Below are positions 1,885 to 31,485 of a stretch of DNA of 64,000 bases, piece by piece. Made by a program: the position numbers and the translations under genes. Under the pieces are notes generated by a model. The model was not told where the DNA came from, ran no database searches, and saw only the letters and a list, made by a program, of their open reading frames with translations. Every line of letters begins with the position of its first letter. The stretch's first letter is position 1. The DNA is taken from assembly GCA_028697205.1 (NCBI GenBank), contig JAQVFO010000002.1, forward strand, positions 124,001 through 188,000, in the 5' to 3' direction. This stretch comes from Candidatus Altimarinota bacterium. GTDB taxonomy: Bacteria; Patescibacteriota; Gracilibacteria; BD1-5; UBA6164.

Positions 1885-1950
1885 AGATATTTTTGCAATT
1901 TTTTTTAATTTTGTAAAATATATTATAACTATTATTTATTATCCAAAAAC

Positions 1951-3297: not shown

Positions 3298-3333
3298 AAT
3301 ATTTTTGACTCTCTAAAAATACAATCAAACTTT

Positions 3334-5022: not shown

Positions 5023-5028
5023 TATAAT
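5023..5028 (+). promoter_or_regulatory. Possible -10 box for the 689-aa exported protein
   Basis: TATAAT at 5023-5028 overlaps the end of the GT-C stop codon, with TTGTAT at 5002-5007 (15-base spacer, shorter than ideal). It lies about 30 bases before the ATG at 5058. Weak evidence in such AT-rich DNA. Confidence 0.25.
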
Positions 5029-5057
5029 TAAAAATGTTTATTTTTTAAAAAATATCT

Positions 5058-7127
5058 ATGGTAAAAAAAGTGTTTAGTTTTATCGTTTTAGTTGTTTTTC
5101 TGACTAGTTCACTAAATATAACTTTTGCAGAAAATAGTACCCTTTTATCTGCTTCTAGAGCAAAAATAAAAACTTTAAAAAATTGATCTAAATACTTAAT
5201 ACAATTAAATAAAGTTGATAAATTTATTGACTCCCAAACTGACTCTGCTTTATTAGCAAAATTAAAGATAAGTGTTGATGGAAAAAAAGAAAAAATCATA
5301 CCTAGTATCTTATGATGAAGTAAGTCAAATGACTTAAATTATGAACTATTAAATTATATAAGCTTAAAATTAAGTGAGAGACTTAATACTTTATCATGAA
5401 TAGAACAACAAAAAATTATAGACTTATTTAATAATCCAGATTTAACTTCTGATGAAATTAAAAAAGTTGAAGATGAAATAGTTAAATTGCAATTAAACTT
5501 ATTTGACTCTAGTAAAACATTTATTGATAAATTAGTAAGTAATTTACAAGATTCTATAAATTTAGAAGAAAAAGGTAATTTAAAAATAAATGCAGAATGA
5601 AGTTGATCATTATTTTGAACTGCTAGTTGAGAATTAAATATAACTAATTATGCTTCTAAAATTTCAAATTTTGACTCTGAATTTAAAGCACAAGTTGATT
5701 TACTTATTAATTCAAGCTTAAGATGATGAGAAGATTTCAAAACTCAGTTTTCATCATTTATCAACTTTATAAGCAAAGATGGTAACATATATATACTTTT
5801 AGATAAATTAAATTATTCAGGAATTGACTCAAGTGAGATTGAAACATATCTTGCAAAATTAAAAGAATTAGCTGCAAATAATGAATATTTAAAATTTGAA
5901 GATCAAAATTCAACTTATGTACTAAATTTAATTAGAAATTTTGATTTAAATTCTATTTATGGGGAAACAAATAAAATTCTTTTAAATCCTATGTTTAGAC
6001 CATATAAAAAAGATTGAGATAGATATTTATTATTACCTACTAAAGAAGCATGTGATGCAATAAAATGAATAGAATATAAAATAGCATGAAAATGAGTTTG
6101 GTATTGTAGTGATAATGAATATGATAAAATGTTAAAAGAAAGTTTAAAAAATTGAAACTTTTATATTGTTATAGACTGAAATGAAAAATATCTATGATAT
6201 GATATGATAAGTAATGATGTAACTTGATGAGTTAAAGTTTATTATTCTGATAAAAAAATTGAAAAAATACTTGTAAGAATTGATCCAAAAGATAATAAAT
6301 ATAAATGAGAATATTTTGAATTAAATTTCGTTAACTGACAAAAATTGGATATTGTACTTAACGCAATGTCTGAAAATATGCTTTTATCTTTCAAATCTTT
6401 GTTATCTAGTGATAATAAATTTAATAAAATTAATTTTATATGAAATTTTACAGACTTTACATCATCTTTTAATTTAGAGAATAAAAAGTTTAATGGTAAC
6501 TTTGAAAATAAATTAAAAAGATATAATTATGATTATAATAACTGAACTTGAAATTATGAAGATAGCTGAAAAATAATATGAACATTAAGTTGAGAACTGA
6601 ATAGTGAAAATACACTTATATCTTTAAATTTAGATATAAGTTGAAATGAAAATGCAAATAAATATAACTATGATTGGAATACTTGAAAATCATCATACAC
6701 TCCTGTAAACTCTATTTTTAATTTAAAATATACTTTAAAAAATGAGATAATTTCATGAAACATATCATACAAAGAATGAGATAATGAATTATTTTCTTTA
6801 AATTCAACTTGAAAATATAGAAAAAATTATTTTGAATTAAATAATATAATAAATTTCTTAAATCCTATTAGCTTTACATCTGATAAAGAAACAGTAGTTT
6901 GAAATTTAAATATTAAATATGAATGAACACTAAATAAAAATAATTCAAATATTTATCTTGATGTTAAATCTAAAACAGATTATATAAAAATTATAATAAC
7001 TTCAGATTATGAAAAAAATCAAAATAATAATATAAAAATTGAAGCTCCAACTAAATATAAAACTATTGATGAAGTTTTTCCAAAAAATAACTCAAGCAAT
7101 AATGATTTCTTTTATCAAACTAAATAA
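5058..7127 (+). CDS. Exported protein of unknown function, 689 aa
   Basis: I do not recognise a family. The N-terminus is a clear signal peptide (MVKKVFSFIVLVVFL, cleavage plausible after NITFA). The mature protein is rich in Asn, Lys, Ser and TGA-encoded Gly. Its first part is Lys/Asp-rich and largely helical in character (residues about 20-200); the second half (about 450-680) has alternating polar/hydrophobic strands of the type seen in beta-rich surface proteins. Two Cys residues (in EACDAIK and VWYCSDNE, about 20 residues apart) could form a disulfide. It follows the glycan block and ends in a strong terminator, suggesting an independently terminated exported or surface-anchored product. 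No LPXTG-like or lipobox motif was seen. Confidence 0.8.
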
Positions 7128-7160
7128 ATTGACAATAATATAAAAACTTGCAAAATATAA

Positions 7161-7193
7161 AAAAGTAATATAATACACTTATATTACTTTTTT
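7161..7193 (+). terminator. Intrinsic terminator after the 689-aa protein gene
   Basis: A perfect 13-bp stem (AAAAGTAATATAA) with a five-base loop is followed by a T run. It starts 33 bases after the TAA and only about 12 bases before the next ATG. Confidence 0.8.
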
Positions 7194-7205
7194 AATTTAA
7201 AAATT

Positions 7206-7595
7206 ATGAAAAAAGTTATCATATTATTATGTGTTATACTATGAATAGTTAGTATAAATACTTCATATGCAGCAACAACTACTAGTACTTGATATCTTAT
7301 AAAATCTGATGTAAATATTTATAAAATTTATAAAGAAACTGTGCTTTCTAGACACCAAATTAAACTTGATTTTAAAGATGGAGATAAACTAAATTCTATA
7401 ATTGAAAAATATTTTATAAATGTTTACCTTTCTAAAGATAGAAAACAAAAGCTTGATACATTAGAAAGAAATTTATCAAATGTACTGCAAAAACTAGAAG
7501 CTAAAAAACCTTTAACTATAAATCAAAAAAAGATTTTTAATTTAGCTAGAAATTTATATTTAAGAACTATATTAGAATTAAGAAAGAAAAACTAA
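7206..7595 (+). CDS. Small exported helical protein, 129 aa
   Basis: The start at 7206 gives a signal peptide (MKKVIILLCVILGIVSINTSYA) that includes a TGA glycine; a reading confined to the standard code would begin too late, at 7341, and miss it. The mature part is short and mostly charged and helical (KQKLDTLERNLSNVLQKLE), possibly a coiled coil. No conserved family was recognised. The gene sits between two hairpins, so expression requires read-through or a promoter inside the short leader. Presumed periplasmic or surface-located. Confidence 0.75.
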
Positions 7596-7602
7596 ATGAA
7601 AT

Positions 7603-7640
7603 AAAAAAAATACTAAATCAATTGATTTAGTATTTTTTTT
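7603..7640. terminator. Bidirectional intrinsic terminator between convergent genes
   Basis: A perfect 19+19 base palindrome (arm core TACTAAATCAA flanked by A and T runs) serves the 129-aa gene on plus and the giant gene on minus, whose stop codon (7639..7641) overlaps its edge. Confidence 0.85.
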
Positions 7641-10600
7641 ATTTCATTATATAATTTCAGTTACTCATTTTCATAAGAACCTCTCAGACTTGTTTTGATC
7701 TATTATTATCAAACAATTTAATACTTACATTATCTCATATAGTATTATACTCTAAACTATAATAATTTGAATATGTACTAATTCTTCAATCAGAAAATAT
7801 TGTAAATAAAGGTGTTTTGTATGGGTCATCAATAGAATATATTACAATTGCTCATGGATTATATGGAACACTTAATGGAACTTGGTAATAAGAGTAAATT
7901 GATTTATTATCAAGTCTTAAATAAATTCAATCAGTTGAAGTGTTAACTAAATCTTCAACAATAGAAACATTTTGTACCTTATCAAAGCTAAAATACTCAT
8001 AATAAATTTCATCTACTCAACTACTTAAAATAATTTTTACATAAGGATTAGTATTTGTTGAAGGAAGAACATCTATTTTTGCTCAAGGTAAATTTTTTAT
8101 TGTTATATTTCAAGTATTTTCATTAATTGTAGCAACTACAATTCAATTCTTATACAACAATAATCAATCATTACCATTTAAATTTACATCAAACAAATAT
8201 GTTCAAGAACTTGTTGTATTAACTTTTTGATTGTTTGATTTATCTATTAATTTTGATAAAACTCATCATCTATATCTATATAAATTAATAGGTTCATTAG
8301 ATAACTTTTCATTTATACTTCAAATAACATTATCTCAATTTTTAGCATCAATAGATGGTATAGGACTATATACTTCTAATATTGCTTCTTTGTATAAAGA
8401 GTTTCATGCTAAATCTTTTATATGCAATCATATCTTTTTTGTAAATAACTCATTATATGGTCAAAAATCAACTTTAACACTATTAAATGTCTTTTTTACT
8501 AAACCATTATCTATGTCTCTATCATTCGTTTTATCTCAATCATTATCAGAATCAACATCTAAATCTGTATCAATATAAAAATCATCAATTCAAATTAATC
8601 AAGAATCTTCGTAAATATAAGGAGTAAAATCATAAGTATATTTTTGATAAACAGGTATTTTTATATTTCAACTTAAGTTAATTTCTGGAGCATTATTATC
8701 ACTAGATAATTGAGGAGAAAGTAATACTTGTGATGATTTTGTTCAGTTAATATTTTCTTTAAAAGCATTAATTCTTGAATAATAAAAATCATTTTTTTGT
8801 TTTGTAGAAATTAGATATGAATTAGATTTAAATCATAAATCATATATTCTATAACTTTTTATATCTCTAAAATCCAAATTTGTTACTGTTCAATCATAAT
8901 AATTTATATCTATATGAGATGCTTCTGATAACAATCATAAATTATCATTATTTGAAGTAATCATAACTCAAGGCAAAATAGGTAATCATACATAATCTTT
9001 TATACTTTGTCATTTTAAAGAAATTGTATTTTGTCATTGAATATATGCATTTCAAGTTATAGCAGTAATTTTTGCTCATGATTTAAACTGTATATTTTCA
9101 AATCTATTTACTGTCACTTCATATAATGAACTTGAGCTATTTATATAATATGTAATTGTAAATGGAGTTTTTCATGCATACAATTTAGTATTAGATGACA
9201 ATGATACAACTTTATTATTACTAATATCATCTTTTATGTTTATCATTTCTTTTCACTCAAAAACAAAATCATCATTTATATTATTTCAAACTGCAGATAA
9301 ATATGCTAAATTATTTTTTATATTATAATCAAGTGTATAACGATTGTCTGGAATATTATCAATATCAGCGAAAGAATCTATTATTTCTTTTCTTATATTT
9401 TGAGGAACATATGAATTATAATTTTCATTTAAAAATTTATCAACAATATCATAAAATTCTAACCTAAAATTATTTAAAGTATCATTTGTTGGAGCATCAA
9501 AAGAAAAATTTATATATCAATTAGCCGATGAAACTTCTCTAGGATTATTTATTGCCTCATAAAATATCTGTGAATTAAAAAACTTATTATCTCAAATACT
9601 TAACTCATAAGGATCATAAATAGTAGGATTATTTATAACTGTATTCTTTGTATTTTCCTTTAAATATAATTCTCAATTTACCATATATAGTAAATCTTCA
9701 TCATCATCATTGTCAAAATCTGTATGTCATAACTTTTCATTTCATTTTAATTCATCAATATAATCAAAAAGTCTATAACTTATACCATTTTCAATTACAT
9801 AAATTCACTTATAATCAAATTTATAATTTGGGTCTGAACTACAAGTACTTGAAGCAGAAGTAACTCAAGAAGAAGAATTAGATGTATTTGCTGCAAGTGA
9901 TTTTGTAAAATCATTTAATCCTGACTTAACTCTAGTTAATAAGCTGTCTCAATCTTTCTTTAATTCAGATGTATCATTATTATTATCAGTTAATAAATTC
10001 ATTGTTGCCTTAACTGTTTCAAGATTATGTTTTCTTAGTATTTCATTATATGCCTTAACATTTGAATCATTTGTACTTGAAACAAACTTTATACTATTTG
10101 GTTTATTCAAATTTTTTATAGATTCTTTTTGTGTTTTTGTTCTCTGTATTTCAGTGTTTATAATATCTTTTAAAGCATCAAATTTTTCTTTATTTTTATC
10201 TTTCAAATCATTAATCAACTTGTCTTCATTAGAATAAGTCATATTTGAAACATCTTGCCATAATTTTCTTATATTTTCAGTTTCAGGATCAGCTTGTAAA
10301 GCTTTACTAGCTAAATTCTCATTTACGTAAGTTAGGAAATCTTTATTTGATAACTCTATATTTCTATTATCCTTCATAAACTTCAAAACTTTAAACATAG
10401 AATAAGCTATAAATTTTGAAAAATTGTTTAATTCTCATTCAACTATTTCTTTATCAGTTTTTTTATTTTCATTCATTCCAGTTTTATTTCATAGATTTAC
10501 GTCTATTCTTTCTTGAAGTGGACTTGAAAAATCTAAGTTAGGAACTGTTGTTCTAAATAAGTTAATTATATTATTTGTAAAAGTATTTATAGGAGCAACT

Positions 10601-13600
10601 GACTGTCTTGCCATTTCTGTAACAAAATCAGTTTCCATTTCAAAGTTTACATATGTTGTAATTTTAATTGCATCAACAAAAGGAAAAGAAAATTGAGGAA
10701 GAGAAACATCAATAAAATCAAATGGTAAAAATCATTGTCTCTCAGAAATATAGGCTATTTGATCTCATGCTCTCCACTCAGGAACCAATGGAGATGATTT
10801 AAGTATACATTGAACTTTAGTTATTATTTTAAGAATATTTAAAACTCATTCAATAGATCATAATAATTTAGGTAATTTAGGTGGTGGTGGTAAATCTGGT
10901 AATTCGATTTTTGGTAAAGTTGGCAAATCTGGAAGGGTTGGTAATTCTAAAGAATCAAGTATAGGAATGGTTGGTAAAACAATATTTATATCAGGAACTA
11001 AAGGTAAATAAAGTTTTGGAAGTGTAGGGATAACTATTGGTCTAACATTAAATTTAAAATCAGGTAATGCTATAATTAATCATGCTTTAATGTTATGTAA
11101 ATCCAAAATTATATTTGGCCATTTTGGGAACTGTATAACAGGAATCTTTGGCACTACCATACTTATAAGTTTCCACATAAATGTCATTAAATCTTGTCTT
11201 TCATTTTTACATTGCTTACAACTTACTTCATAATCATTAAAAACATCAACAAGTAATTGCCATGATTTCAATACTGCTTTTATAAGTATATATGCTTGTA
11301 CCCATGCTTTAAATCTTTCTCAATTAGTTCATAACCATCAACCAAAAAGTGAAACTATAGTATCAATATTACAAAGTACTTGTTGTAACCGTTCTTCTTT
11401 TTTATTTAAAAGTCATACTAACTTTTCAGGGAATTTTTTATATCATTCAATCACTTCTGTATCTTTATCTAAAGAATTTATCAAAGCATTAGCTTGAAGA
11501 ATAATTTTATTTCCTGCTTCATTTTTCTTTTCACAATTAGCTTTTTCAACTGGGTCCGATTGATTACATAATTGTCATAAGCTCCATGCTTCTTTTGCTC
11601 TTTCAATTTCATCCTGCCATTGTTTTTTTGTCATTTCAAAATTCACTTTTGCCTTTAATAAAGAAGTTTCAGTTATCCATGGAACATTTACATTTACAGT
11701 TTGTTCTTGAATAGAAATAAGTGGTAAATTTCATATAAATTCATAAACAGATTTTATTCAAGAAATTGTCTGACTTGGTTTATAATCTTTTTGTAATCAC
11801 AAATTTTGTGACTTTAAATTAAGAACTAAACAATCAAAATATCATTCATCAGATGGACTTTTATCTGCACATTGTTTCGATTCTTGTGCACTATTTACTG
11901 TGTCTAATTCAGACTGAACTTTTTGATCTTCTAAAGTTCATTTTTGTTTTCAGTATTCAAATGATGATTTAACATTATCAAAGAAATTATTCCAACTATC
12001 ATCAAAAACTCAACTAAAATCAGGTAAAATTACTATAATTGAAGGAAAACTTGTTAACTTTGTTACTATTTCTTCTATTTGTCTATCAACCCAATCCATT
12101 AAGAAAGCCGGGAAGTCAGTAATCCATGTATTTTGTATTTTTACTACATCTTTTAAATTTCAATTTTTTAATGCCTTTGTATCAATATCTATTGAAAAAC
12201 TTCATGCTCAAGCTTGATTTCCTTCTCAAATTGTAATCAAAGGATTTGCTGGCATATTTGTAATTTGACTTGTATTGTTTGCTATACTATTAAATGAGCT
12301 TTTTATAGCATCTATTACAGATTTAGATTGATCTCAATTTTTATATTTTAAATAGTTTGAAACAAACTGACTATCAAACCTAAAATAACTTTGATTATTA
12401 CTTGATGAAGAATTTACACAACTTCAATTTAAAACGTCATAATTTCAAAAATTAACTGAAGTATTTTTTTGTTTTGGATCTCAGTCAGATCAATCTCATT
12501 TACATCATACAAGAGGTTTTGCTGCAACAACACAGTTTCAACCTAGCGTTAGAAATGGATATAATCATGGGAAAAATGGTGCATATCAAGCTGTCATAGC
12601 TGGTCATCAAAAACAAGCAGCAGTTCCAACAGCTCAAGTTATTGTAGGAGTAACAAATAATCTAAAAACATTAGTTGGAGCCCAAGTTCATAAAATTCAT
12701 CAAGCTGAAGATGGTCAACATGCTGGTCAAGGCACATATGCTGATGATGAAATTGGCCAAACAACAGGAATACAACATGGAGAAGTTCAACAACTAGTTT
12801 GAAGTCAAGTTAATGCAGAAAAAATAGGTAATCCACTTCATACAACTCAATATTGTGATGGATAAGCCGGCGATATAGGAAATCAAAATAATGTTAATGA
12901 ACTTCAAGGAGCAAGAGGTGCAGCATTTAATGGACTTGATACACAAGACCCTCAACCAAATCATTTACATAAACCTTGTGAAATAAAATCAAGTCAGTCA
13001 AGTATTTGGTCTGTTGTATTATTTATAGTATCTAAGAAATTTCATGTATCTTGATTATTATTATTGTAGCCTGGTGTTGGATCTTCATCATCTGGAATTC
13101 AATCTCCATCAGTGTCTTTTAATATATCATTTAAAGCTCAACTTGAGTAATTTTGTATATCTGTTTTATCTTTACTTACAGCACTTGTAGCTAAATTATC
13201 AATATAATCTGGAACTCAATTTCAATTTTCATCTATTTTATTTAATTCTAGACTACCTGGTAATTGAAGTTTATCTAGATTACAACTTGTTTGTACTTGT
13301 CACTTATCATAAGATCTACTACAATTATTACCACTTCAAACAGATCTATATAAGTCAACATTAAGAGAACAAGATTTATCATCAGGCTTTAACATAATAT
13401 CTCAACAAACATCATCTCATGCTTCTCATTTTTCAAATAATCAAGTTTCAAGATATCAATAAGTTAAAGGAAGAGTTTCAACTTGATATTCTAAAGATAA
13501 CTCTTCTCAAGGATTTAATGAAAAATTATCAACAACAAAATCATAATTTCAAATATTGTATCTTATATTTGATTCTTTACTTGTTTGTACATTATTTCAA

Positions 13601-16600
13601 GCATTATTAAAATAGAAATAATCTTCAATATTTTCTGCATATGCTATATTTTTCTTTGTAGAATTTGATGTGTTTTTAAGTTTTACTTCTATATTTACTA
13701 TATCTCATGAATTTAAACTTCATCAATTTATATCAGTAAATACTTTCTCAACTTTTATTCAAAAACTGTTAGAATACTCACTTTTTACAAAAGTTGTATT
13801 TTGAGAATTATTTGAATCAGTTGGATAATAATAAATATTATTAGATGAGTAGTTTGATAAATCCTTTAATCAATTTATTGTATCAGTATTAAAAGTTCAT
13901 AATTCATTACTGTTTGGTACTGGAATATTAAAACTGTCTACAGTTCATCATGTAAATATTGTAGCATCACTTCAAATTACATTTAAAGATCAAGTTGAAT
14001 ATGGTAATTTAACAAATAAAATATTGTCTATCAATCTTTGATCTATATCAAATGAATTATTACTTCATGTTCATGCACTTTGAATTGCCTTGATTAAATC
14101 CTCATTTGATAAAATCATATTATTCAAAGTCTGATCATTATTAAGAGTTGGAAGCCCTGCATAATACACAGCTCAATTTCAATCTTTTACTTGTGAATCA
14201 AGTTTCATTAAATATCAATCTCAAACCTTTTTCTTTGTGAAAACTGGTGAAGTAGAAGTTCATCATCAGTAAAATATATTAATTTCACCTGATGTATCCA
14301 ATGTTACAATATCCTTTTTCCCATCATTATCCATATCAAAACTAGAAGTACGAACAATGCTTCAATTTAAATTAAATTGATTTTCTAAAGGCATCTTTAT
14401 AAACTTCTTTTCAACATTGTTCAAAAGATATGGCTTTCATTTAGCAACATAAAATATATCACCGTATCAATCTCAAGTAAAATCTCAAGATTCAATACTT
14501 GGCTTACTTCATAATTCAGGAATATAAACTAAATTTCATTTATTATCAAAATTTAAGTTTCATCTATTCTCTAAAAGTTGAATATATGAATTTGATTTTA
14601 TTAATATTAAATCATCTAATTTATCATTGTTATAATCAAGAATTTTATATCAAACATTTTTACTATCTTTAGAGATTAGTTTTCAAACTGTACTATCAAA
14701 ACTTCTATCAACATTTGTTCAGGGAAGTTTCTTTTTTATGTTTTTTAAATTTATAACAGGATCTCAAAGATTTATTAATGAAAATGAAGAATATTTTTTT
14801 GTTGATTCTCAAACTGACTCTCAAGCAGCAAAAAGTAATAAAGACTTATTTTTTCATGACCATCCAACTCATTTATTATCTTTGAAATTCTCAATTGAAG
14901 AATTATCAGCTTCAGAAAAAGCATCTAAAGTTGTATTGTCAGCAAATGGATCATTATAATAGATCATTAAAACTTCGTTTTCATTTGTATTTAATGTTCT
15001 ATTACCATAAAGATAAGTATTAAGATAAACTATTATTGAATTTTTTAAGGTACTTAATTTTTGTGATAATAGTGATTCATCTCTAGTAACATTTAAAGTT
15101 GAATTAATTAAATTATATGAAAATAAAGCGACTATAGTATTTCAATCTTTTATAGAAAATACTGCATTTTTTGAATCATTTAATGAATAATTTTCAAGTG
15201 ATAAAACTGCATTCTTAGATATTGTTCAATCCTTATTTATCCTAAAAACAATATTTCACAAAGAATCTTTTAAAACCAAAGTTCAAGATTCTTCATATGC
15301 ACTATATTTATTTCATATATTTTTTAGTGAAATAGAAGTTTTTGTTTTGCTAATATTACAATCTGAAAAATCTAAATTATTACCAGTACAAATTTTTATT
15401 TCATTATTTGTATCCAGATTATAGTAAACTTTTCAAACATATATAGATAAAGCATCATTATATATATCAAAGTACAATTTACCATTTTTATCAATATTTG
15501 AAATATATTTTATATCTTGAGTTATATTTTGACTATCTTTAATACTTGAAATTGCTCAATTTCAACTTATCGAAATTACATCATTATGTTTATATGGATC
15601 ATTTAATAAACTTGTAACAGCTAAACTTCTATTATTTTTATCAAAAAGTAAAGCTCACGCTAAATAATCTTGTTTAGTTATATCTCAATAAGGAGCTCAT
15701 AATAGTACTGTATATAATCAATTATAATAGTTACCATCAATTGCTTCTTTATTCCAAAAATAAAAAGTTTCAAGTTTTATTGCATTTTCACTTTGTGGAT
15801 TAATAGTAATTTTGTTTGTTTTTAACCATAAAGCAATTAAATCATTTTTTTGAGTATTTGTTAACTTATCAAAATCTGGTGAATTTTTTAAATCATTTAA
15901 TGTGCTAAATTTAGACCTATAATAATCTAGATTATACTCTTCAAAAAATTTCTTTCATGTTTCTGTTAATCAATTACTATCAGTAAATCATACAATATGT
16001 AAAGATGATTTTATAAATGGAGCTTGTCACTCAATTTCTAAGATTGTTTTAAACTCTGGGCTTGCTCTTACCATAATATAAGCAAGTCAAGGAATATCTG
16101 TTGCATTTATTTTAAATGTAGCTACTCAAGAAGAAACTATAGAAGAATTAATCTCTGGCGTAATAATATTTTTGTATTGATCTTTTACCTCAAGTGATAA
16201 ATTAACAGAATTATTATTATATACTAAATTTCAAAATCTATCTTTTAATTCAGCTTTAAGTATAGTATAGTCTTTCGGACTAGCTTCAATTTTATCTCTA
16301 GACAAAGATAAATCTATTCTTATTGGATCATCAGGTAGTATATCAATATATTTTGTATAAATTTTTTTAAGTCCTTCGATTTGAAACGATAATTTCACAT
16401 CTTTTGCTGCAGTTCTCTTTGTTATAAATTTCACTGTTCCTACTCAATTTTTTACATCAACATAAGAGTCTTTAGGAATTCAATAAATAGAATTTAGTGT
16501 TAAATAAAGTCTAGAATTAAAATCATTTATAATGTTTCAATCTTTATCTCTAACTGAAAAATTAAAACCATATTCTCATCATCAAACTTTTATAGAGCTT

Positions 16601-19600
16601 TGAAGAGGTGCGACTCATAACACAACATCTTTTATTGTTTTTACATTTTTTGTAACATTTGTAATTTCTGTTCAAGAAACATCTTTTATTTTAAATGAAA
16701 TAGTATTGTTTCATTCATTATCAGTCGATTTTAATCTAAAAGCTTTATATCACTCAATTGTTTGAAATGTAATATTCTTTTTAGAATTTTCATCAAATAA
16801 GAGACCATCTCAACTTATGCTTCATTCTATATTATAAAACTCTCCTGAAACTGGATTTTTAAATTTATCATATATAGTTAAAAAATGTGTAGTTACTACA
16901 TTTCAAGTTTCTAAAATACTAGTTCATAATGTTATTTCTGCACTATTAGCTTTTTCAGGTTTTACTGTAAACTTTTTTGAAAATTTAAATCAATATTTAT
17001 CCTCTACAACAAGATTATAATCTAAAGCTCAGGATAATGCTCAAAAATTAATATATAATAGAGAGTTTAAAGTTCAAGTACTAAATATATCATCACCTTT
17101 ATATAAATTATATTTTATAGGATAATTTATAGGTAATTTAGATCATAATTTAGAATAATTTTCCAAAACAAAAACTAATTTTTCCTTTGAAGTTGATGAA
17201 TTATTTATATTGTTTTTAACTCAATCAATTGTATTATTATATCAATCTACTAAATATATATTTGAATTATCTGAAGCTAAAACTCAATTTGTTCAAGAAT
17301 CTACATTCAATACATTATTATCATTGTTTAAATTATAAGTTGAAGCAAAAAAGTTATCTCATCTTACTTCAATTTTAATAGTTTTTTCTAACTTAATTTG
17401 ACTCTGTTTATTGTAATCAACTATATTTATATAAGCTCTTATATAAGCATCAACATCTTTAGTTTTTGAAGCAAATGCATAATCAGCTTCTCAAGAAGAA
17501 ACTTTTTGGTATCAATCTTTAAAACTAAAATAATTATCAGCATCTTTCCTTCAATTTTCATTACTAACTCATTTTTCATAAATTAGTCAGTTATCTAGTG
17601 ACTCAAGTTTCTCAAGTTCAAAGTTAACAACTGTTGAGTTATCATATTTTAATTGATTTCAATCTTTATCTAATAATTTTAAATTTAATCTTCCAAATTT
17701 ATTATAATAATATCTAGATGAATCAGAAGTAAACTCTAAACTTCCTCATCAAAGTTCAGATTCTAAACAATCATTTATTCAATTTTTATTTATATCTCAA
17801 TCACAAGCTTCATATTTTTTTTGTTCTTCTTCAGTTAAAAACAAAGATTTATTACTACAATTTCATCCTCAAATCTTTATAGTTGGTGGCAACATGGTCT
17901 TTAACCGACACATAATAGCTGGAATCCATTGCCAGATAGGAACTCAATCAGGAGGTCAGCATTTAAAAAGCTTACTTTGATCTACTAAATTTCATGCATT
18001 TAATCATAAAAGTAAATTGTTTAAAGTAGCATTTTTAGCCATTATATCAGCATATGGATTTGCATTTTTTGATTCTGGATCAATCTTTATATACATATTT
18101 TCTGCATCTCATGGTGCTCACATATAAGATATCTCATACATTTTTTTATTCTTTGGTAAACCAAACTTATAAGTATTTCAGTTAAATTGATCTGATAAAT
18201 AATTTTCAAATATAAATTTATATTTTGCAGAAACTGAATTTAAGTTTTTCCAATACAATGAAAATACTAAAGAATCATAATAACTAACTTGTTTTTGATC
18301 TCAATCTAAATTATAAGTTTTTAATGGTTTATCTTTTAAAGATTTAAGTAAATCTAAATTAGCATCTGGATAAGTTCAAGTTTTTAAATAATTATTATAT
18401 ATAGTATCATTTGGATTTGGTTTTGAAGTACTTATTAAATTATTTATTTCACTTGTCTTCGTATTTAAACTAGCTTGTAATAATTTATCAATATTTTCAA
18501 AAGTATCACCAGATCAAGTTGATATATTTATTCTGTATAAATATGGATAATTTATTTTTTTATAGTTTCAATCTGCTCATATAAAATCCACATATCTGTC
18601 CTTATCTATTGGTAAAGCAGGAGTAACCATTGAATTTACCTGAGTCTTTAAATCATCTTGATTTGGAGATTTATGAAAAATATACGATGGGATAGTTTTA
18701 TAAAAATAGTTTTCAGTAATTATTTCACATTCTCCAAATGATAATCAAAATTTTTGTTTAACTACTTTTCAATCTAAACTTACAGATGTTCTCCAACACA
18801 TCTTAGAAGTTAAATTATTATAAGTTTTATAAAAATCATTATAATTTACTGTTCATTTTGCTAAATTATTAGTACTACAATTCCATCAAATTTTTTGATC
18901 TATACTGTATGTTTTACTACAAGTTTCCCATACTAATCAATATTGTTCAGTTAATATTCAAACTCATTTGAAACAATCGAGTGGAGAATTAGTTTTATTT
19001 ATATCATTTTCTTTTTTAGCTCATCATATATCAAAAAGTGGAGTTATTGAACCACTTAAAACATGAGTTCATAAATTCAAGGTAACTCATCAATTACTAG
19101 ATTTTGTATCTAAATTTATTGGACTGTTTCATCACCACCATCATCTAGTCAAACAAGACATATCAGCTCAACAAATACTAAAACTTGATTTACTACATTG
19201 TGATATAACTGTTGAATCAGCTTGTATATTATTTATATTATATCATCTATTTGCCTCAACTAAAGTTCAAGAATTTGTTAAAGATCATCTATAAATACTA
19301 CAATCAGTAGCTCATGTTAATGTACTTGCTTTTTTTCAGTAAAAATAATTAGTATAAGTTCTTCAACACATATTAGTGGTTTTGTATGACTCAAAAATAG
19401 GTATTTTTCTTGATAATCAATTTTTAACTACATTATCTATTGTATTTTCTAAATCATCATTTGCGTTTTTTATAACTTCTTCAGAAATTAAATCAATAAC
19501 AGAAACAAGAAATGGAACTAAATCTGCATTTACTTTATCATAAGTTTGTGAATACCTTCAAGCATTAAACACATTTTGTCTCATCTCAGCTAATGTAGAA

Positions 19601-20706
19601 GAATTAAATATTTCTATAAATCTTTTTGTTAATTGATTAGTTACATATCTAGTTGAGATATCTGAAGTTCAATCAAACATACTTCAAGAACTTGTGGTTC
19701 AAGATAATGCTAATTCTGGGAAAGCAGTTTTTATTAAATTTTGAAGTTCATCTTGTCATCAATTTAAAATTTGATCTTTTAATTTTGTTGCAAGTTCTTT
19801 TGAAAATCTATTATAAACAATATCCTCCAAATTTGATTGTCTTGCCTCATATCATTTATAGTTTGTATAATTTATTGCTTGTTCTTCTCTATATTGATCA
19901 AAATAAAAAACATATGGTTCATAATCATCAGGAATTCAATCATTTTTATTTCAATTTATAACTCACAAATTTTTATTAAATAATCAAGCTCATGTATAAT
20001 AATCATGATTTTTATCAAAATAATCTTTAATTGCTTGAATATCATCATCTTTATTTCAAGTATTTGGAGCAATTACTCATTGCCAAATCTCTGGATTTAT
20101 TGTTGAACTTCAATTTTCAGCCTTCTCATAATTATCATTTTTGTGATTATAAACATAAGTTTTATTTTCAAAATCTATATAAGGAAGTATTGTTTTTGAA
20201 TAATTTTCTCCATTTTTTACAATAGGTAATGGAATATTTCAAACAAATAATGAACCAATAAGTTTTGATTCAAAATTAACATTTTTTACAGATTTATATC
20301 ATTCAAAGTAAAGTGATTCATTCAAAGATGCTATTTGAAAAGAACTAGCATTATGTGGAGTTGGAATTATAACTACTTTTGTATTATCAAGAACTCATTC
20401 TATATCGCGAGCATACCTTGATAGTTTTGATTTAACATCTCAATAAATATTATCATCAACTATAATTGAAACTAGATTATAAAACTCTTTATTTTCTGCA
20501 TTTACTTTGTAATTAAAAAATTCAATGAAAGGAACTCTTAACCCAATGTTAAAAAGTAAAAATGAAATTAAAATAAATGATATAATCTTTTGAGAAAGTG
20601 AGTAATCATTTCTAGGTCAAACAAAAACACTTATAAAATCCTCTATTTTAATGAATTTTAAAGGATTTTTTTTCTTGCTAAAAAATTTTTTTAAAATCTG
20701 TTTCAT
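7639..20706 (-). CDS. Giant surface protein, 4,355 aa, with FG-GAP-like and calcium-loop repeats
   Basis: I followed the frame codon by codon from ATG 20706 to TAA 7641 and met no TAA or TAG. One transmembrane segment lies near residues 33-55 (KIISFILISFLLFNIG), then about 4,300 extracytoplasmic residues. The N-terminal ~300 residues contain GSLFVGNIPLPIVKNG, a pattern I associate with large CPR surface proteins. Acidic D-x-D-x-D loops occur near residues 254, 964, 2529 (DTDGDGIPDDEDP) and 4044. FG-GAP/VCBS-like strands appear near 2023-2125 (DFDMDNDGKKDIV) and 3664 (DFDNDDDEDLLYM). Residues about 2600-2720 are Cys/Gly/Pro-rich and hydrophobic, and about 3225-3285 form an LPxLP repeat. A 15-bp hairpin separates it from dnaE, so it has its own promoter or relies on read-through. 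Likely an adhesin-like cell-surface protein (inference); no enzymatic motif was seen. Confidence 0.9.
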
Positions 20707-20810: not shown

Positions 20811-23800
20811 TTAAACTCACCATTTACTTTTCTCCCAAAAGAAAATTTCTTCAGTATCATTTACAGAAATCTTTGTATCTATCTTTTGTCATTTTAAGTT
20901 AATATATACCTTTGTTTGTCACTTAGTCATTCATTCTAAAAAGTCTTTTAAATCAATTAAATCAGATTTTTTAGCTGCTTCGGGAATTACTATAATATAT
21001 GAAGATTCAATTCAACAAATACCATCAAGATTTTCTGTACATTCTACTTTTTGTACATCAAAATCATTATTTAAATCATCTAAATTATCACTATTATTTA
21101 AAGTATTATCTTGATTATTCTTCTCATCTTTTTCATCATTAACAACTAAATTTCAACTACTAATAATCTTAATTCATCTTTTAATATCATCAAAAAGTCA
21201 TAAATCACGAGCTTGATCTCTTATTTTAGTAAGTGGAACAATCACAGATTTTCTTGATTGAATTCACTTTCTTCCATATTCCAAATCAACTGATAAATTT
21301 CATTCTAAAATAATTATTTTTCAAACTTCTATACTATCTTTTATATCATTAAATTCTCTATCAAAAATCGTAACTTCAAAATCAACATCAAATCACTCAC
21401 AAGTAAGAAAAACCATATTTTTTCAAGTTTTTGTGAGAATTTTTCTTACATCAGTAATTACTCAAACAGTTTTTACCATTTTTTCTCTTATATCACTCAA
21501 AAATTTCTTTTTTCTTTCATCTGTTTGTTCTTTTTCATAAAGTAATTTTATCTCATCTAGAGACATCTTCAAGTATTTTGTATTTGAGCTTCTTTTCTCA
21601 CAATATCTTTTAAGACTATCTAATGGATGCCCTGAAACCATAAATCATAAAACTTCTTTTTCAAAAAATAATTTTTCTTCATAATGAAATGGAGCTGAAT
21701 CTCTTAATATTAATCTATCTTCATATCAAGAATTTCACATATCAAAAAGTCATATTTGCATAGAATCTTTTCATTTTTCATTTCATTTTGCATATCTTAA
21801 AATCTCATCCAGATTATGATACATCTGTCATCTATCTCAAAACTCATCTAAACTTCATGACTTTATAAGAGCTTCTAAAGATTTTTTATTTATAACTTCT
21901 TTTCATGCTAATTTTATAAATTCTTCTAATGTATTAAATTTTCATCATTCTTTTCTTATCTCAAGTATTTTATCAATAGGTCAATCTCAAAGTCATTTTA
22001 TAGCTTTCAATCAAAATCTTATATTTTTATCATCTATATAAGTAAAGTGTTTTAATGACTGACTAATTGATGGTGGTAATATATTTATCCCGTTTGCTAA
22101 ACTCTCAGAAACTTCCAAAGAAATTCTATCTAAGTCTTCCTCATCTGAAACCATCATAGCTGTTATAAATTCTGTTCTATGATAAGCCTTTAAATATGCA
22201 GTTTCATAGGCTATAAGAGCATAACACGCTGCATGTGATTTATTGAAACTATAATCTGCTGCTGGCATTATCATATTTTCATAAATTGTTTTTGATGTCT
22301 CCTCTTTATATCATCTAAAGGTTGCTGCCTTTTTTATAAATTCTACTTTAAGTTTTTCTATTACATCTTTTTTCTTCTTTCAAACTCATCTTCTAAGCAT
22401 ATCAGCTTCAGCAAGAGAAAATCAAGCCATAGCCTGTACAAGTCTCATAAGTTGTTCCTGATAAACTGCAATTCAATATGTTACATCCATAAATGGCCCA
22501 AGGTCTTCAAAAAGTTTTTTTCTTTCTTCTTCTACAACTTCTTTACCATATTTATTCTCAAGTTCAATTTTAAGCTCATCATACATATATTCTATTGGTT
22601 CTCTTCAATACTTTCTATTTATATAGTTTTCAATAAATTGCATTGGCCCAGGGCGATAAAGAGCTACCATAGCAATTATATCATCAAAACTTGTAGGTTT
22701 TAGGTTTTTTAACCACATTCTCATTCAATCAGATTCAAATTGAAATACTCAAGTGGTATCTCCATTTGCAAATATATCAAGTACTTCTTGATTATTTAAA
22801 TCTATTGCAAGTATATCTAAATCTACATCTTTATTTCTCTTTAATATTTTTCATGTTCTTTTTATAATACTTAAGTTTCTAAGTCATAAAAAGTCCATTT
22901 TTAAAAGTCATAAATCCTCAAGTGGATAAGCACTATACTGTGTAATTATTGTTTTACTATCTTTTGGTGGATGTTGTAATGCAGTAAAATTTGTCATTTT
23001 TTCTGGAGCAATTATTACAGCACATGCATGCACTCAAATTTGTCTTACATTTCACTCGATTTTTAAAGCATCATCAATTATTTCTTTATAAATTGTATTT
23101 TCATCATATGCCTTTTTAAATTCTTGAGACTCCTCAAGAGCTTTTATTAATTTTGTTCAAGGTTTTTCAGGAATCAATTTTGCTAACTCATTCATTTCAG
23201 CAAACGGAATTCCCCTAACTCTACCTACATCTTTAACTGCAGCACGAGCAGCAAATGTACCAAAAGTACAGATTTGAGCAAGATGGTCTGCCCCATACCT
23301 TTCCCTACAATAATCTATTACTTTATCTCTTCAAGTATCAGCAAAATCTGTATCTATATCAGGCATAGAAACTCTAGCAGGATTTAAGAACCTCTCAAAA
23401 AGTAAATCAAATTGCATAGGATCAAGATCTGTAATTCAAGTCAAATATGCAAGTAAAGCCCCAGCTGCAGATCATCTACCTGGACCAACAGGAATATTAT
23501 TATTCTTTGACCACATTATATAATCTGATACTATCAGGAAATACGCATCAAATCACATTTTATGAACTACAAAAAGTTCATATTCTAGCCTATCAATTCT
23601 TTCTCTTGTCTTTTCATCAAGATTACTTAATATTTCTTTCTTTTTTTCTGTATAATAAGCAAGTGACGCATGTCTTAATTCATCTACATTTGAGTCTTGT
23701 AAAGACTTCTCTAAAGGATCAATATCTATTTTTTTTATAAATTCAAAAATTTCATTTTCATTAAAAGTTGTTTTAAATCTAAAATTCATTCATTTAAAAC

Positions 23801-24740
23801 AAAGATATCTTAAATACCACTCATCTGTTGATAACTTTTTAATTCCTTTCTCTCATTTTTCTAGTAACTGTGCTTTATCATATAAATTTTGGTCAGTTTC
23901 TGGAAGTTTATAAACTGGTATTAAAATCCTTCAAGTTTCTATATTAATATTTACTTCATTTGCAATTTTATTTGTGTTTTCAAGAGATGATGGTATGTGT
24001 CAAAAAATAGAAGTCATTTCATCTTCTGATAAAAATGAGTAATCTCAATTTTTTAAACTTGGTCTATCATGATTTTCTAATTCATGCCCAGTTCACAGAG
24101 CTTGGATTACATCTTGAGTTTGTTTATCTTCTTTATTTATATAATAACAATTATTACACGCAACAACTCATAGATTATATTTTTCATGAAGCTCAATCAA
24201 TCTTTTTGTTATAAGCTCTTGTTTTGGAATATCTCTATGTTCTAATAACTCTAAGTAAAAATTTTCTTTTCAAAAAATTGATTGATAATGATTTATTTTT
24301 TCAATTATTTCTTCATCTCTTTTTCCAGAAAGTATATAAAAAGGAATTTCTCAAGACATTGGTCAACTTAAAGCAATAAGATCATTTGCATAAGTTTTTA
24401 TATCTTGAAGAGCTATTTTTCAATTATTTCACTCAAGATTTATTTTTGTCATCAATTCTATTAAATTTCTATATCCATTTTCTGATTTAGCAAGTAAAAC
24501 TAGTTTATGTTTTATATCTTTATCTAAACTTGACTCTACAAAGATTTCAGATCAAAGTATTGGATTTATTCAAGCGTCTTTTGCTTTTTTATATAATTCA
24601 TGGCAACCATATACATTCATTGTATCAGTTATTGCAATAGAAGACATTCCTAAAGAAACTGCTTTTTTTACATAATCTCCAGGTTTTGGTAGTCATTCTA
24701 AAATTGAGTAGTGAGTGTGATTATGTAAATGGATAAACAT
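20811..24740 (-). CDS. dnaE: DNA polymerase III alpha subunit, 1,309 aa
   Basis: Replicative polymerase of the C family. The N-terminal PHP domain starts [16 protein letters not shown], with the HxHxxxxS metal-site pattern intact. The palm carries [15 protein letters not shown] and the catalytic PDIDTDF at residues 460-466. The fingers include [12 protein letters not shown] and ALYRPGPM, and the finger/thumb region [17 protein letters not shown] helix-hairpin-helix segment (LKAIKGLGDGPI) precedes a C-terminal OB-fold region that ends with an acidic Asn/Asp linker and a short beta-rich tail. At 1,309 residues it is somewhat longer than the ~1,160 of E. coli; the extra length lies in the C-terminal linker, with no intein seen. 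It is monocistronic by appearance, divergent from the gene at 24873. Confidence 0.97.
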
Positions 24741-24815
24741 CAATAAAATTTTTAAATTTTAAACTAAATATAATTTAAGCAAAAATATAAAAATGACAAG
24801 TGAAATATTCTTTTT

Positions 24816-26247: not shown

Positions 26248-29097
26248 ATGAATAAATTGTTTTACATAATAGTTGCATTTCTATATACAAAAAATATTAC
26301 ATTTGCTAGACTAGTCTGATGAAGTAATACTCTTAATAGTGCAAAAAGTACTCCAGTTGAAACTTGATGATTTTTTTCAAGTACTTATGATTTTTTATAC
26401 TCTATTTTTTCTCTTTTATTATCAATCGCTGTAATAATTATATGATTTATATTAATAAAAAAATTTATAAGATTAGTTTTTGAAATATATTATGCTAAAA
26501 ATTTAGTATACATAAAAATTACTCTTCCTAGAAATGATAGTAAACTAGATAAAGAAAAGGAAACAAAAAAAGATTTTAAAGAAAAAATATGAATAATGTC
26601 TATGTTTTTTAAAGCTACTCATAAATTAAGTGAAGTAGGTTTTAAAGAAACAATTACTAACCGTATATTTAGACATGCAAAATTATCATTAGAACTTGTT
26701 TATGATAAATGAGAAGTTTATTTTTACATAGTAACATTCAAAAACTTTCTAAATCTTGTAACTCAACATATTACTTCAATATATACAGATGCTGAAGTTA
26801 AAGTTATAAATCCAAAAGAAGAATATATAGATTTGAGGGAAAGTTGATATAATTTAAGATGTGCTTCATTATCAAAAGAAAATGATGATGTATTTCCAAT
26901 AAAATCGTTTAAATATCTTGAAGATGATCCTATTAATAACTTTACTAATGTATTTGGATGACTTTGAAAAGATGATAAAGCTGTTTTTCAAATAGTAATT
27001 AAACCAGTATGATCTAATTGGAATAAAAAAGCAAAAAAAGCTGCATGACTTGTATCAAAATGAATGTATAAAAAGAAAAAACAATTTAAATATTTTGATT
27101 TGTTATGGAATCCAATCGTTGCACTTATACAATGACCTCAAGATATGATAGCAAATCAAAATAATGCCCCATGAGCAAGTTCATGAGATGCATACAAGAT
27201 TTTTAATCAAGCCGAAACAGAAAGTCAAAAAATAATGTGAGAAGCTGCAAGTCAACCAGCTTATAAAGCATCTATAAGAGTTTTAGTTAGTAGTCCAAAT
27301 GAGGATGTAAGTTTAGATTGAACTCATGCAATTATATGAGCTGCATCTATTTTTACTGATGAATATAATAACTCATTAGATAATCCTCAAGTAAGAGAAG
27401 ATTGATTGCATTTTATATTTACTCCTATGATATATTTTTGATACAAATATAAACTTTTATGATTTTTTCAAAATACCTCAACATTTTCAACTGATGAAGT
27501 ATCTACAATGTACCATTTCCCTGATATAAATTATAATAAATCCCCATTAATAAAATGGTTAGATTACAAAAAATTATCTCCTCCTCATAATTTAAAAGTT
27601 CCTCAAGTCCCAACTATTTTAGAGGAAAAATTAGCTAACTGAGAAACTAAATTAATGCAAAGAACTCTTTGATGATTTCCTATTTTTAAAGATGCTTCTT
27701 TAATGTGATGGAATGAATATAGAAATAAAAAAACTCCTATATATTTCAATAAAAAAGATAGATGAAGACATCATTATATTATTTGAAAATCTTGAGGTTG
27801 AAAATCTGTTTTTATAGATTATATGGCAAGACAAGATATACGGAATTGAGATTGAGTTTGTGTAATTGATCCACATGGTGACTTAGTTGAAAGTATATTA
27901 AAATACATTCCTAAAGAAAGAGCAAAAGATGTAATAGTATTTGATCCATCAGATGATGAAAGACCTATGTGATTAAATATATTGGATATAATATCTGAAG
28001 ATCCAGAAATGAGAGTAAGAGAAATGGATAGAGCTGCTCTTGACGCTACTGAAATATTTATAAAAATCTTTGGTGATGAAATATTTGGTCCTCGTATTCA
28101 ACATTATTTCCGTAATTGAGCTTTAACTTTAATGGAAGATAAGGAAGATGGTTGAACTTTGATAGATGTTCCAAGACTTTTTGTTGATGATGCTTTTATG
28201 AGATACAAAACTTCAAAAATAAAAAATCCTGTTGTTAAATCTTTTTGGCAACATGAATATGCAAATACTTGAGATAGAGAAAAACAAGAAATGATTCCAT
28301 ACTTTTCTGCTAAGTTTGGACCATTTATTACAAATACTACAATTAGAAATATTATAGGACAAACAAAATCTGCTTTCAATCTAAGAGAAATAATGGATAA
28401 TCAAAAAATCCTTTTAGTAAATCTTTCAAAATGAAAAATATGAGCATTAAATGCGCAATTACTTTGATTAATTTTTGTATCAAAGGTAAATATGGCAGCT
28501 ATGAGTAGAGCAAATATTCCAGAAGAACAAAGAAAAGATTTTTTCTTATATGTTGATGAATTTCAAAATTTTGCAACAGACACATTTTGAGAAATACTTT
28601 CAGAAGCTAGAAAATATCGTTTAGCACTTATTATGGCTCATCAATTTATAGCACAAATTGGATGAAGTGGTGAAAAATATAAATCAACTTGAAAGCCAGC
28701 AATTAAAGATGCAGTTTTCTGAAATGTATGAACAATAATGAGTTTCAAAGTTTGAGCTGAAGATGCAGAATATTTAGAAAAAGAATATGCTCCAGCTCTT
28801 TCACAACAAGACATAATATGAATTGCAAATTACACAACTTATTGTAAACTAAATATAGATAATGCCTCATCTCGTCCTTTTGATTTCAAAACTATTTGGG
28901 ATGAAAAATACAAAAATGATAAAGCTTCTGAAATAATAAAAGAATATAGTAGAAAAAAATATGGTAGAAAGAAAAAATATGTAGACTTAGAAATAGAGGC
29001 AAGACTTGGTATAACTTCTTTAGATAATGATATGGCAAATGCTCCTTCAAGCTGAGAAATAGCAAGTAGTGAGCCACTAAATAATGAAATAAAATAA
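26248..29097 (+). CDS. VirD4/HerA-type T4SS-like ATPase, 949 aa
   Basis: Membrane-anchored ATPase of the CPR 'type IV secretion DNA-binding / DUF87-TraM recognition' group. A signal-like N-terminus and one TM helix (SIAVIIIGFILIKKFI, about residues 55-75) precede a domain with KITLPRND and FYIVTFKNFLNLV, characteristic of this group. The motor carries Walker A IIGKSGGGKS (about 511-520, with three glycines as TGA), VIDPHGDLVE, a Walker B/DExx-like FFLYVDEFQNF (about 765-775) and MAHQFIAQIG, a TraG/VirD4-type sensor. It would couple ATP hydrolysis to moving DNA or protein across the membrane. It is first of four plus-strand genes closed by a terminator; the next three are pilin-like membrane proteins, which supports a dedicated secretion or pilus system. 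The promoter lies in 26149-26247 (TATA-rich), box uncertain. Confidence 0.85.
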
Positions 29098-29135: not shown

Positions 29136-30113
29136 ATGTTTAAAAAAATAATATTACTTCTAGTACTTATATCATTAAGTTTTATATCTTGATCTAATGT
29201 ATTTGCAGGAAATGCTCTTGATTGACAAGTAAATACAAGTTTAAATTGAAACATATCAAATAATAAAACAAATGACCCTTTAAATAGTCTTATAAATAAT
29301 TCCGATAATAATTTTTATGGAACAAGTGCAACATGAGCTAATTGAATAAAAAACACTCTTGTCCAAATCGCAAAAGATATAAAAAATTTATTTTTTGTAT
29401 TAGCAACTATATTTTTCTTACTAATAACTTTAAGATTAATTTTTGCTGAAAATACAGAAGAAGACTTTTGAAAATATAAAAAATGAATAATTTGGATAAC
29501 TATGTGACTAGTCGTTATGCAAGTAGCATTTTATTTTGTAGTTGCAATATATGACAGATGAGCTTGAGCAACACTAGCAGATAGTTTATTAACAAATGTT
29601 ATAAAACCTTTATTAAACTTATTATCAACTCTAGCATCAATATTTTTCTTATGAATTGCTTTATATAGTTTCTATAGATTAATCTCAGCTTGATGAAATG
29701 AAGAGAAAATCAAAAACTGAAAAAATTCAATTATCTATGCAATACTTTGAATGGCATTAGTTAAATTTGCATCAAAAATAGTTGAAACAATTTACTGAAA
29801 ATATGTTTGTAATATAAGTCCTTTATGAGTTCAAGAGTGTTGAATACAAAAGGTTTGAGATTTAAGTTGATTTTCAAAAATATTTTTGGATTTAATTAAT
29901 TGGTTAAATTGATTTGTTGCAATTGTTACAGTACTTATGATTTTATATGCATGAAGTTTAATTTTATTTTCATGATGAGATGATGAAAAATTGAAAAAAT
30001 GAAAAAATATTATAGTATATGCATTAATATGAATATTAATACTCGTTATAAGTTATTTAATTCTTACTTTCTTCATCTGACCTAATTGAAGTAATATAAC
30101 AACAACTCCTTAA
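29136..30113 (+). CDS. Membrane protein with repeated T4SS-pilin-like hairpins, 325 aa
   Basis: A signal peptide (MFKKIILLLVLISLSFISG, mature start after NVFA) is followed by about six hydrophobic helices. Three helix-loop-helix units can be traced: a degenerate one (FAENTEEDFGKYKKG), then SAGGNEEKIKNGKNSIIYAI and SGGDDEKLKKGKNIIVYALI. The loop G-G-[ND]-[ED]-E-K-[IL]-K-x-G-K-N is the hallmark of the VirB2/TrbC-like pilin proteins of CPR. One protein thus seems to contain three fused pilin units. A pair of Cys lies in a loop (YVCNISPLG, EECGI-like context). It starts 38 bases after the ATPase gene, consistent with co-transcription. Function as a multi-unit pilus or channel subunit is inference. 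Confidence 0.75.
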
Positions 30114-30138
30114 AAATTTATATTTTTACATAAATTAT

Positions 30139-31050
30139 ATGTTTAAAAGATTTCTATTAAAATTTCTTCTATTTTTACCCCTAGTATTTTTACTTTTACC
30201 TTCACATAGTTTTGCTTGAGCTATTACAATTTGATGAACTTCTGAAATACAAAAGGTTTCATTAAATAATGGATCTAGCTCTGACATTGTATCAACTATT
30301 GAAAACACATGATTTTCATTATTGAGAACAATAAAAATTATACTAATATGACTTTTTGTTATATATATGGTTTATGCATGAGCAAAAATGATTATGTCTA
30401 TGTGAACTGATGAAGATAAAATAAAAAGTGCTAAAAAACAAATTTGGTATGCACTTATATGAATAATTTTTGTAAATATTCCTTGAACTATTTATGAAGC
30501 ATTTTACAAGCCTTCAAATTGAAGTATATGATGATCTATATGAAGTTCATGGAATTCAAAAACACAAAGTTTTGCAGACACTATATTTATTAATTGAAGT
30601 GCTTTTGACTATTTAATTAATAGTGTAGTTTGGATGCTTGAAGTTGTTATATTTTGGTGAGCTATATTTATTCTTGTATATTCATGAATAAAATTAATAT
30701 TATGATGAAAAGATACAAAAATCGTACAAGAATCAAAAATGAAATTACTTTACTCAATTATGGCACTTATACTTGTATGATTTATTGAAGCATGGAAAAA
30801 TTTTGCATTTGGATGACAAATTGCAAGTTGAATAAGTTTATTTAAAACCCTTGCAAATTTAATATTATTCTTAGCTGCACCAATTGCTATATTTTATTTA
30901 AGTTTAGCGTGATATTATTACATTACATCTTGATGAAATGATGAAAAAATAAAAAAAGCAAAAAATATAATTACTTATGTACTTTTATGAGGACTTATAT
31001 TTTTAGCTTCATACACTTTCCTACTTGAATTGTGAACATTTAATTCTTAA
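30139..31050 (+). CDS. Second membrane protein with repeated T4SS-pilin-like hairpins, 303 aa
   Basis: Same architecture as the gene 25 bases upstream: signal peptide (MFKRFLLKFLLFLPLVFLLL, mature after SHSFA), then paired helices. Units: SMGTDEDKIKSAKKQIWYAL, then GGKDTKIVQESKMKLLYSI, then SGGNDEKIKKAKNIITYVLL. The first and third carry the full D/N-D/E-E-K-I-K loop; the middle one has diverged. The pattern implies an origin by duplication and fusion of a single pilin-like gene, in parallel with 29136-30113. It overlaps no neighbour; the next ATG is 9 bases after its stop. Presumably part of the same membrane complex as the ATPase at 26248. Confidence 0.75.
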
Positions 31051-31059
31051 TTACACCTT

Positions 31060-31485
31060 ATGAGAAAATTATTATTGATTTTATCTATACCAACTCTCTT
31101 ACTAATCAATTTTTGAATAACTAATGCAGAGTGAGAAACTCCTACTACTTTAACAATAGAAGTTACAGAACAAGTTCCATGAGCTAAATGTGATACATGA
31201 AGTATAAATAGTAGCTGAACAAAAATATATAAATGTACTGTTGAAAGATGATTTGGTACTGTTAAATCAACAATCTGAGCTATTATTAAATATTTTACAT
31301 ATATAACATGACTAGCTTGAGTGCTTTACATAATTATTAACTGAATTATGCTTTCAATGTCATGATTGGAACAAAGTATGAAAGAAACAGCAAAAAAACA
31401 CATTCAAAAAGTCCTTATCTGATTAGTATTACTTCTTCTATCGTGAGTTTTACTAAATCTTATAGCTCCATGGATATATCAATAA
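31060..31485 (+). CDS. Single-unit T4SS pilin-like protein, 141 aa
   Basis: A signal peptide (MRKLLLILSIPTLLLINFGI, mature after TNA) is followed by a polar segment with two Cys (AKCDTGS, IYKCTVE; potential disulfide) and then one helix-loop-helix unit (LSMSGLEQSMKETAKKHIQK loop). It is the shortest of the three pilin-like proteins and ends the four-gene cassette immediately before a terminator. In size it resembles the protein at 225-644. The polar Cys-bearing head could be surface-exposed in an assembled structure (inference). Confidence 0.75.

Follow-up and report, generated by a model that had tools for sequence, protein, structure and literature searches.

A 4,355-residue exported protein encoded in the window (the whole 64,000-nucleotide stretch of DNA that was analysed) is the product of a single-copy gene that is conserved over almost its whole length in Gracilibacteria and their sister groups. 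Its class-wide conservation in single copy, together with an operon of four exported proteins, makes it look like the backbone of an undescribed surface machine and not a one-off adhesin. We lean, by a modest preference, towards a reading in which it forms the backbone of a surface apparatus of these bacteria that is associated with the cell wall, has several subunits and is conserved across the class. The conservation of the giant, its export signal, the partner operon in several lineages, co-inheritance and the SLH domains of distant members are observed here. On the preferred reading, the giant would be exported by way of a cleaved signal peptide, and its chain would run from an apparently inactive gingipain-like head through an Ig-like stalk, a calcium-binding FG-GAP unit and a Cys-rich hydrophobic beta domain to a helical and Pro-Leu core. 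It would assemble with four smaller exported, Cys-containing proteins of the ancestral operon, and SLH domains would hold it on the wall in Peregrinibacteria-type members. Its most likely use would be to attach the epibiont to a host cell, perhaps jointly with a T4SS-like machine. How Gracilibacteria and their relatives hold on to, or feed on, other bacteria is not known; the giant and its defined partner set offer a concrete, testable candidate for the attachment or feeding apparatus, and a marker for it. The gene and the parts of its product are as follows.

7639..20706 (-), giant gene, 4,355 aa, code 25 (TGA = Gly); from the frame and orthologues
20497..20706 (-), probable signal peptide at the N-terminus, residues 1-70, with a hydrophobic stretch at 37-55 and cleavage predicted behind ...YKVNA; hydropathy and AxA-type site
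19897..20484 (-), predicted caspase/gingipain-like domain, first part, residues 75-270; model md046b4844e73 and VIA comparison
18337..19896 (-), predicted large insertion in the caspase/gingipain-like fold, residues 271-790; structure model, VIA
18109..18336 (-), predicted closing strands of the caspase-like fold, residues 791-866, without conserved Cys/His; model range to 813, invariant columns
17737..17961 (-), conserved Cys/Pro/Trp motif CxPPxG...W...C...LPP and acidic loop, residues 916-990; invariant residues
16057..16956 (-), Ig-like modules, residues 1251-1550, weak Invasin_D3 and GH2_C5; Pfam
14227..14739 (-), FG-GAP/VCBS-type repeats, residues 1990-2160, invariant Asp; PF13517
13072..13254 (-), acidic calcium-type loops, residues 2485-2545; sequence pattern
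12412..12969 (-), hydrophobic Cys/Pro/Gly-rich beta domain, residues 2580-2765; model m7f795cecbaa1, invariant Cys
11137..12159 (-), long helices and invariant CxxC, residues 2850-3190; model, alignment
10837..11136 (-), Pro-Leu spine, residues 3191-3290, within the family's most conserved stretch; alignment
10507..10836 (-), conserved segment past the Pro-Leu spine, residues 3291-3400; alignment
9637..9813 (-), second FG-GAP-like unit, residues 3632-3690; sequence and conserved residues, no significant Pfam match
7642..9039 (-), C-terminal region, residues 3890-4355; site of SLH domains in distant orthologues, none here

A TGA-rich frame and its conservation

The reading frame lies on the minus strand, from an ATG at 20706 to a TAA at 7641-7639; its 4,355 codons include 255 in-frame TGA and no TAA or TAG. 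An earlier note on this DNA gave these coordinates and this length exactly and was silent on the strand. The frame is readable only because UGA specifies glycine in this bacterium: translation of the region with table 11 leaves no surviving ORF longer than 149 aa. The probability that a frame of this length would stay open by chance at this base composition is ~10^-150. In distant orthologues with 0-1 in-frame TGA, glycine stands at 39.7% of the columns in which the query has TGA, as compared with 34.5% of its GGN columns, which supports the assignment of TGA to glycine; the gene is a clean natural test of it. Across relatives, the same ~4,000-codon gene carries from 6 to 291 in-frame TGA. Three orthologues (L137, L162 and L146) have 6-15 and two others (L099 and L101) more than 250, so that the use of TGA as a glycine codon varies strongly inside the order.

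Stops or frameshifts in the frame had been named as the finding that would speak against a single giant protein. Instead, intact orthologous frames of 4,011-5,471 aa (median 4,311) are found in 37 of the fetched orthologous stretches, each from a relative, so the ORF is not a sequencing artefact; with the alignment evidence for TGA as glycine, they rule out a frameshift or decoding artefact. Searches with both halves of the protein detect the giant in 78 of 79 genomes of the genus and of its wider relatives up to class level (the window's own genome, in which it occupies one locus, is counted), and the orthologues align at 28-54% identity across about 3,700-4,200 residues. The family's most conserved part, residues 3100-3400, holds the CxxC, FPKWPD and PxLPxLP spine; a profile of residues 3095-3400 matches in 14 of 287 genomes of the phylum, all 14 of them in the same class, and in none of the 261 sampled genomes outside the class. 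A longer profile places the giant family in 56 of 79 class genomes and finds it absent from every sampled genome of three families (f10, f137 and f143). Among named records, Gracilibacteria, Peregrinibacteria and Peribacteria have it. Family f140, which from its code and class is probably Absconditabacteria, has TGA-rich copies of about 4.1-4.6 thousand residues. The comment that the combination and order of parts match no nameable family is right to the extent that no named family covers the giant; as a suggestion of a one-off it does not stand, for the whole architecture is conserved class-wide. Conservation of that kind, in a single-copy core gene, suits a structural part of some conserved machine better than it suits a host-specific adhesin.

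Companion proteins and the cell wall

Behind the giant, and on its strand, Peregrinibacteria-type genomes carry four genes whose products measure about 200, 220, 590 and 375 aa. A majority of these companions begin with a hydrophobic export signal, they have conserved cysteines in common, and their gene ends often overlap or abut. By HMM search, seven class families (f7, f8, f9, f12, f13, f136 and f139) have the order giant-companion 1-companion 2-companion 3-companion 4, whole or partial; this order also occurs in named Peregrinibacteria/Peribacteria records, and in f140 a related gene run lies behind the giant. A type IV pilus operon was considered and set aside: the ~590- and 375-aa downstream genes resemble PilB and PilT in size only, their sequences being those of exported proteins of another kind. 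A CxxCH heme motif in some members of companion 3 was likewise rejected, its His not being conserved.

In the window's order, companions 2-4 are dispersed and unlinked to the giant, and homologue searches there do not find companion 1. The E-values of the companions found in this order are modest. Companion 3 is strongly supported by profile-profile matching (hhalign, 99.4%, E 1.4e-21) and in the window's genome is a protein of 525 aa (G000:C3:248875-250452). In 11 of 11 aligned loci of the order it is followed by an exported protein of ~420 aa, whose profile-profile match to companion 4 (88.5%, E 2.7e-6) gives moderate support to their relationship. Companion 2 (314 aa) lies on another contig of the same genome (G000:C18:44476-45420). 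Companion 3 is present in 44 of the 56 class genomes with the giant and in 3 of the 23 without it (Fisher p 7.8e-8, in a test that ignores phylogeny); the three giant-less exceptions come from families in which the giant is otherwise present, and three class families lack both. The partner set of the giant is well supported, and it provides a common context for genes that, where tested, match no family.

Four distant, Peregrinibacteria-type orthologues have SLH domains close to the C-terminus, scoring above the Pfam cut-off. Relative to the window protein these domains fall in an insertion at residues ~4290-4315; a Pfam search of the window protein itself finds none. They indicate wall attachment in those relatives. 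On its downstream side, at 757-7595 on the plus strand and convergent with it, the giant has genes for a glycosyltransferase, a Wzy-like ligase, a 562-aa multi-TM protein and exported proteins of 689 and 129 aa, several of which recur beside the giant in other genera. The SLH domains and the glycan genes (the glycosyltransferase and Wzy-like ligase), like a single-copy giant that is nearly universal in the order and conserved throughout, would also suit a general, S-layer-like envelope scaffold made of the giant and its companions, which would build or cross-link the coat of the cell itself and have no dedicated role in host recognition. Conservation this strong along the whole length is as compatible with a general role in the envelope as with host recognition. 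The known crystalline S-layer proteins, however, do not resemble a 4,000-residue multidomain protein in which FG-GAP, Ig-like and caspase-like modules go together with one to a few SLH domains, and the giant is missing from three class families; we consider an envelope scaffold of this kind rather improbable. For the cell-wall-associated apparatus that we prefer, use in host contact remains plausible. The fuller proposal is that an undescribed five-component extracellular machine, comprising a scaffold of 4-5 thousand residues and four exported partners, was already present in the ancestor of Gracilibacteria, Peregrinibacteria/Peribacteria and the code-25 sister family and serves these epibionts as their device for host contact. 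It is put forward tentatively, as a possibility that we do not expect to hold in all its parts.

Genomic surroundings and the T4SS genes

Upstream of the giant the window carries the following genes.

20811..24743 (-), dnaE, upstream neighbour, outside the system; neighbour annotation
26248..29097 (+), VirD4-like T4SS coupling ATPase, possible partner; neighbour of the giant
29136..31485 (+), three T4SS pilin-family genes, possible partners; PF18895

The gene for dnaE lies 105 bp upstream of the giant. Synteny beside dnaE, proposed earlier as a check, holds in 6 of 6 relatives examined (three of the same genus and three of other genera); further genera carry other genes upstream, so that the linkage is local. 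Beyond dnaE, 5.5-11 kb from the giant, stand the VirD4-like ATPase and the three pilin-family genes, two of which (325 and 303 aa) have three PF18895 matches each. ATPase and pilin-family genes recur near dnaE and the giant in a genome of another genus (G010) and the ATPase in one of yet another (G019). Three f140 genomes have a T4SS-pilin-like gene at the second position downstream of the giant, past companion 1. A 2025 survey reports no PrgB-type T4SS adhesins in Patescibacteria (PMC12102498). The giant resembles the PrgB-type adhesins of Gram-positive conjugation in being a large exported protein that in some genomes is near T4SS genes; it differs from them in having no PrgB-type profile match and another domain make-up, and its T4SS linkage is not universal.

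A complex of the giant, as a component of the Patescibacteria T4SS or as its adhesin, might bridge that system to the target cell, in place of the adhesins that have so far not been found in the phylum. We think this unlikely: G004, of the same genus as the window, has its T4SS genes away from dnaE and the giant, the f140 pilin matches fall below the Pfam cut-off, and the VirB4-type ATPase that was detected is on another contig. The occurrence of T4SS genes near the giant in some genomes, and the lack of a known T4SS adhesin in Patescibacteria, make the link worth testing but do not establish it. Downstream of the giant in one f140 genome there is also a gene for a protein of 1,003 aa (cut) with Listeria-Bacteroides repeats and a Fib_succ_major domain (L187:16893-19901).

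Predicted folds and relatives of the giant

The sole TM-like stretch of the giant, residues 37-55, is followed by a signal-peptidase-type site (cleavage between YKVNA and EN), and by a simple hydropathy/AxA rule the same pattern is present in 53 of 62 orthologues. The N-terminal segment is therefore probably not the membrane anchor that it had been taken for; a cleaved signal peptide fits better, and export of a giant surface protein is supported.

The structure model of residues 60-1000, built from 52 sequences, has a pLDDT of 80.8 and a pTM of 0.74. Foldseek gives no significant match to it; in VIA the four top rows are all gingipains, RgpB at Z 10.2 (rmsd 4.3 A over 203 residues) and Z 8.7 (132 residues) and Kgp twice at Z 8.1, with caspases frequent among the weaker rows. 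A C25 fold had been suspected from the sequence ahead of the structure search. The region is accordingly predicted to be a gingipain/caspase-like fold with a large insertion (~500 residues), in which two distant orthologues have a PDZ domain (PDZ_2, E 3.7e-7 in L173 and 0.008 in L191). Fold is what the N-terminal domain would have in common with gingipains (peptidase family C25, clan CD), from which it differs in lacking detectable sequence similarity, in its insertion and in being part of a 4,355-aa surface scaffold. Pfam gives no C25 match in the window protein, in 22 members or in 10 distant members; sequence profiles A2 and A8 match neither gingipains nor other solved structures, and profile A4 gives coiled-coil chance matches only. 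The orthologue alignment has no invariant Cys or His after the core strands. On these grounds the domain is tentatively read as an inactive relative of the gingipain fold, apparently without a conserved catalytic Cys/His pair and with catalysis presumably lost. An active peptidase that digests host proteins, or processes surface proteins, might be argued from the gingipain-class fold and the PDZ insertions, but the absence of an invariant Cys or His after the core strands and the missing C25 matches make it very improbable.

Between the head and the conserved core, GH2_C5, weak in the window protein, exceeds its cut-off in orthologues L172 and L173. Two groups of FG-GAP-like strands had been proposed: the first is borne out by a PF13517 match at residues 2024-2085 (29.6 bits against a Pfam cut-off of 26.9) and by FG-GAP matches in 9 of 11 orthologues; the second, at ~3632-3690, can be seen by eye and is conserved but not significant. 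The TSP3 repeats that were to be sought with them are not detected by profile in the window protein (PF18884 matches in orthologue L172 only). For the acidic calcium-type loops, of which at least four had been counted, the pattern yields 16 matches (overlaps included) as against 4.1 in shuffled sequence. FG-GAP_3 repeats are shared with FG-GAP/VCBS-repeat surface proteins, but they make up only about 4% of the giant, most of the remainder being without a named family. VCBS-repeat proteins have been detected in a groundwater Gracilibacteria proteome (PMC11452946), and these are possibly of the same family as the giant.

Two features of the earlier note, a Cys/Gly/Pro patch (2580-2765) and a Pro-Leu repeat (3191-3290), are real and rank with the most conserved parts of the protein. 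Residues 2625-2704 of the beta domain are modelled at a pLDDT of about 89, with the long helices and then the Pro-Leu spine behind. The structure prediction recommended at the outset thus gave a likeness for residues 60-1000, whereas the model of residues 2555-3640 has no confident match in Foldseek or VIA; the rows being confined to helical parts, a new fold is neither shown nor excluded.

Giant surface proteins are known from related CPR bacteria. Vampirococcus lugosii and other Absconditicoccaceae are predicted to have membrane or surface proteins of up to 4,163 aa with adhesion-type domains (PMC8080830, PMC13059738). These resemble the window giant in length, in predicted surface location and in belonging to a related epibiont lineage; compared by their published description, they are presented as a group of large proteins, with no mention of orthologues throughout a class or of a partner operon. 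Neither such a family nor such an operon is described in the passages of the literature that the analysis covered. With these precedents, its size and its Ig-like and FG-GAP modules, the giant might pass for an ordinary fast-evolving, lineage-specific adhesin, but an architecture and core conserved end to end class-wide, with partners co-inherited, largely refute this and leave it scarcely credible. A phage or plasmid structural protein is rejected, there being no PHROGs match and no match to the conserved core in 50,697 phage and 72,556 plasmid records. The conservation of the giant means that CPR "giant adhesin" genes are not all fast-evolving.

Two copies of the family are of unusual form. 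In a class-level relative (G077, contig C6; part in L192) the homologue sits within a frame of 7,874 aa, and a palindromic contig of another genome (G034, contig C37), probably an assembly artefact, carries mirrored copies of the giant.
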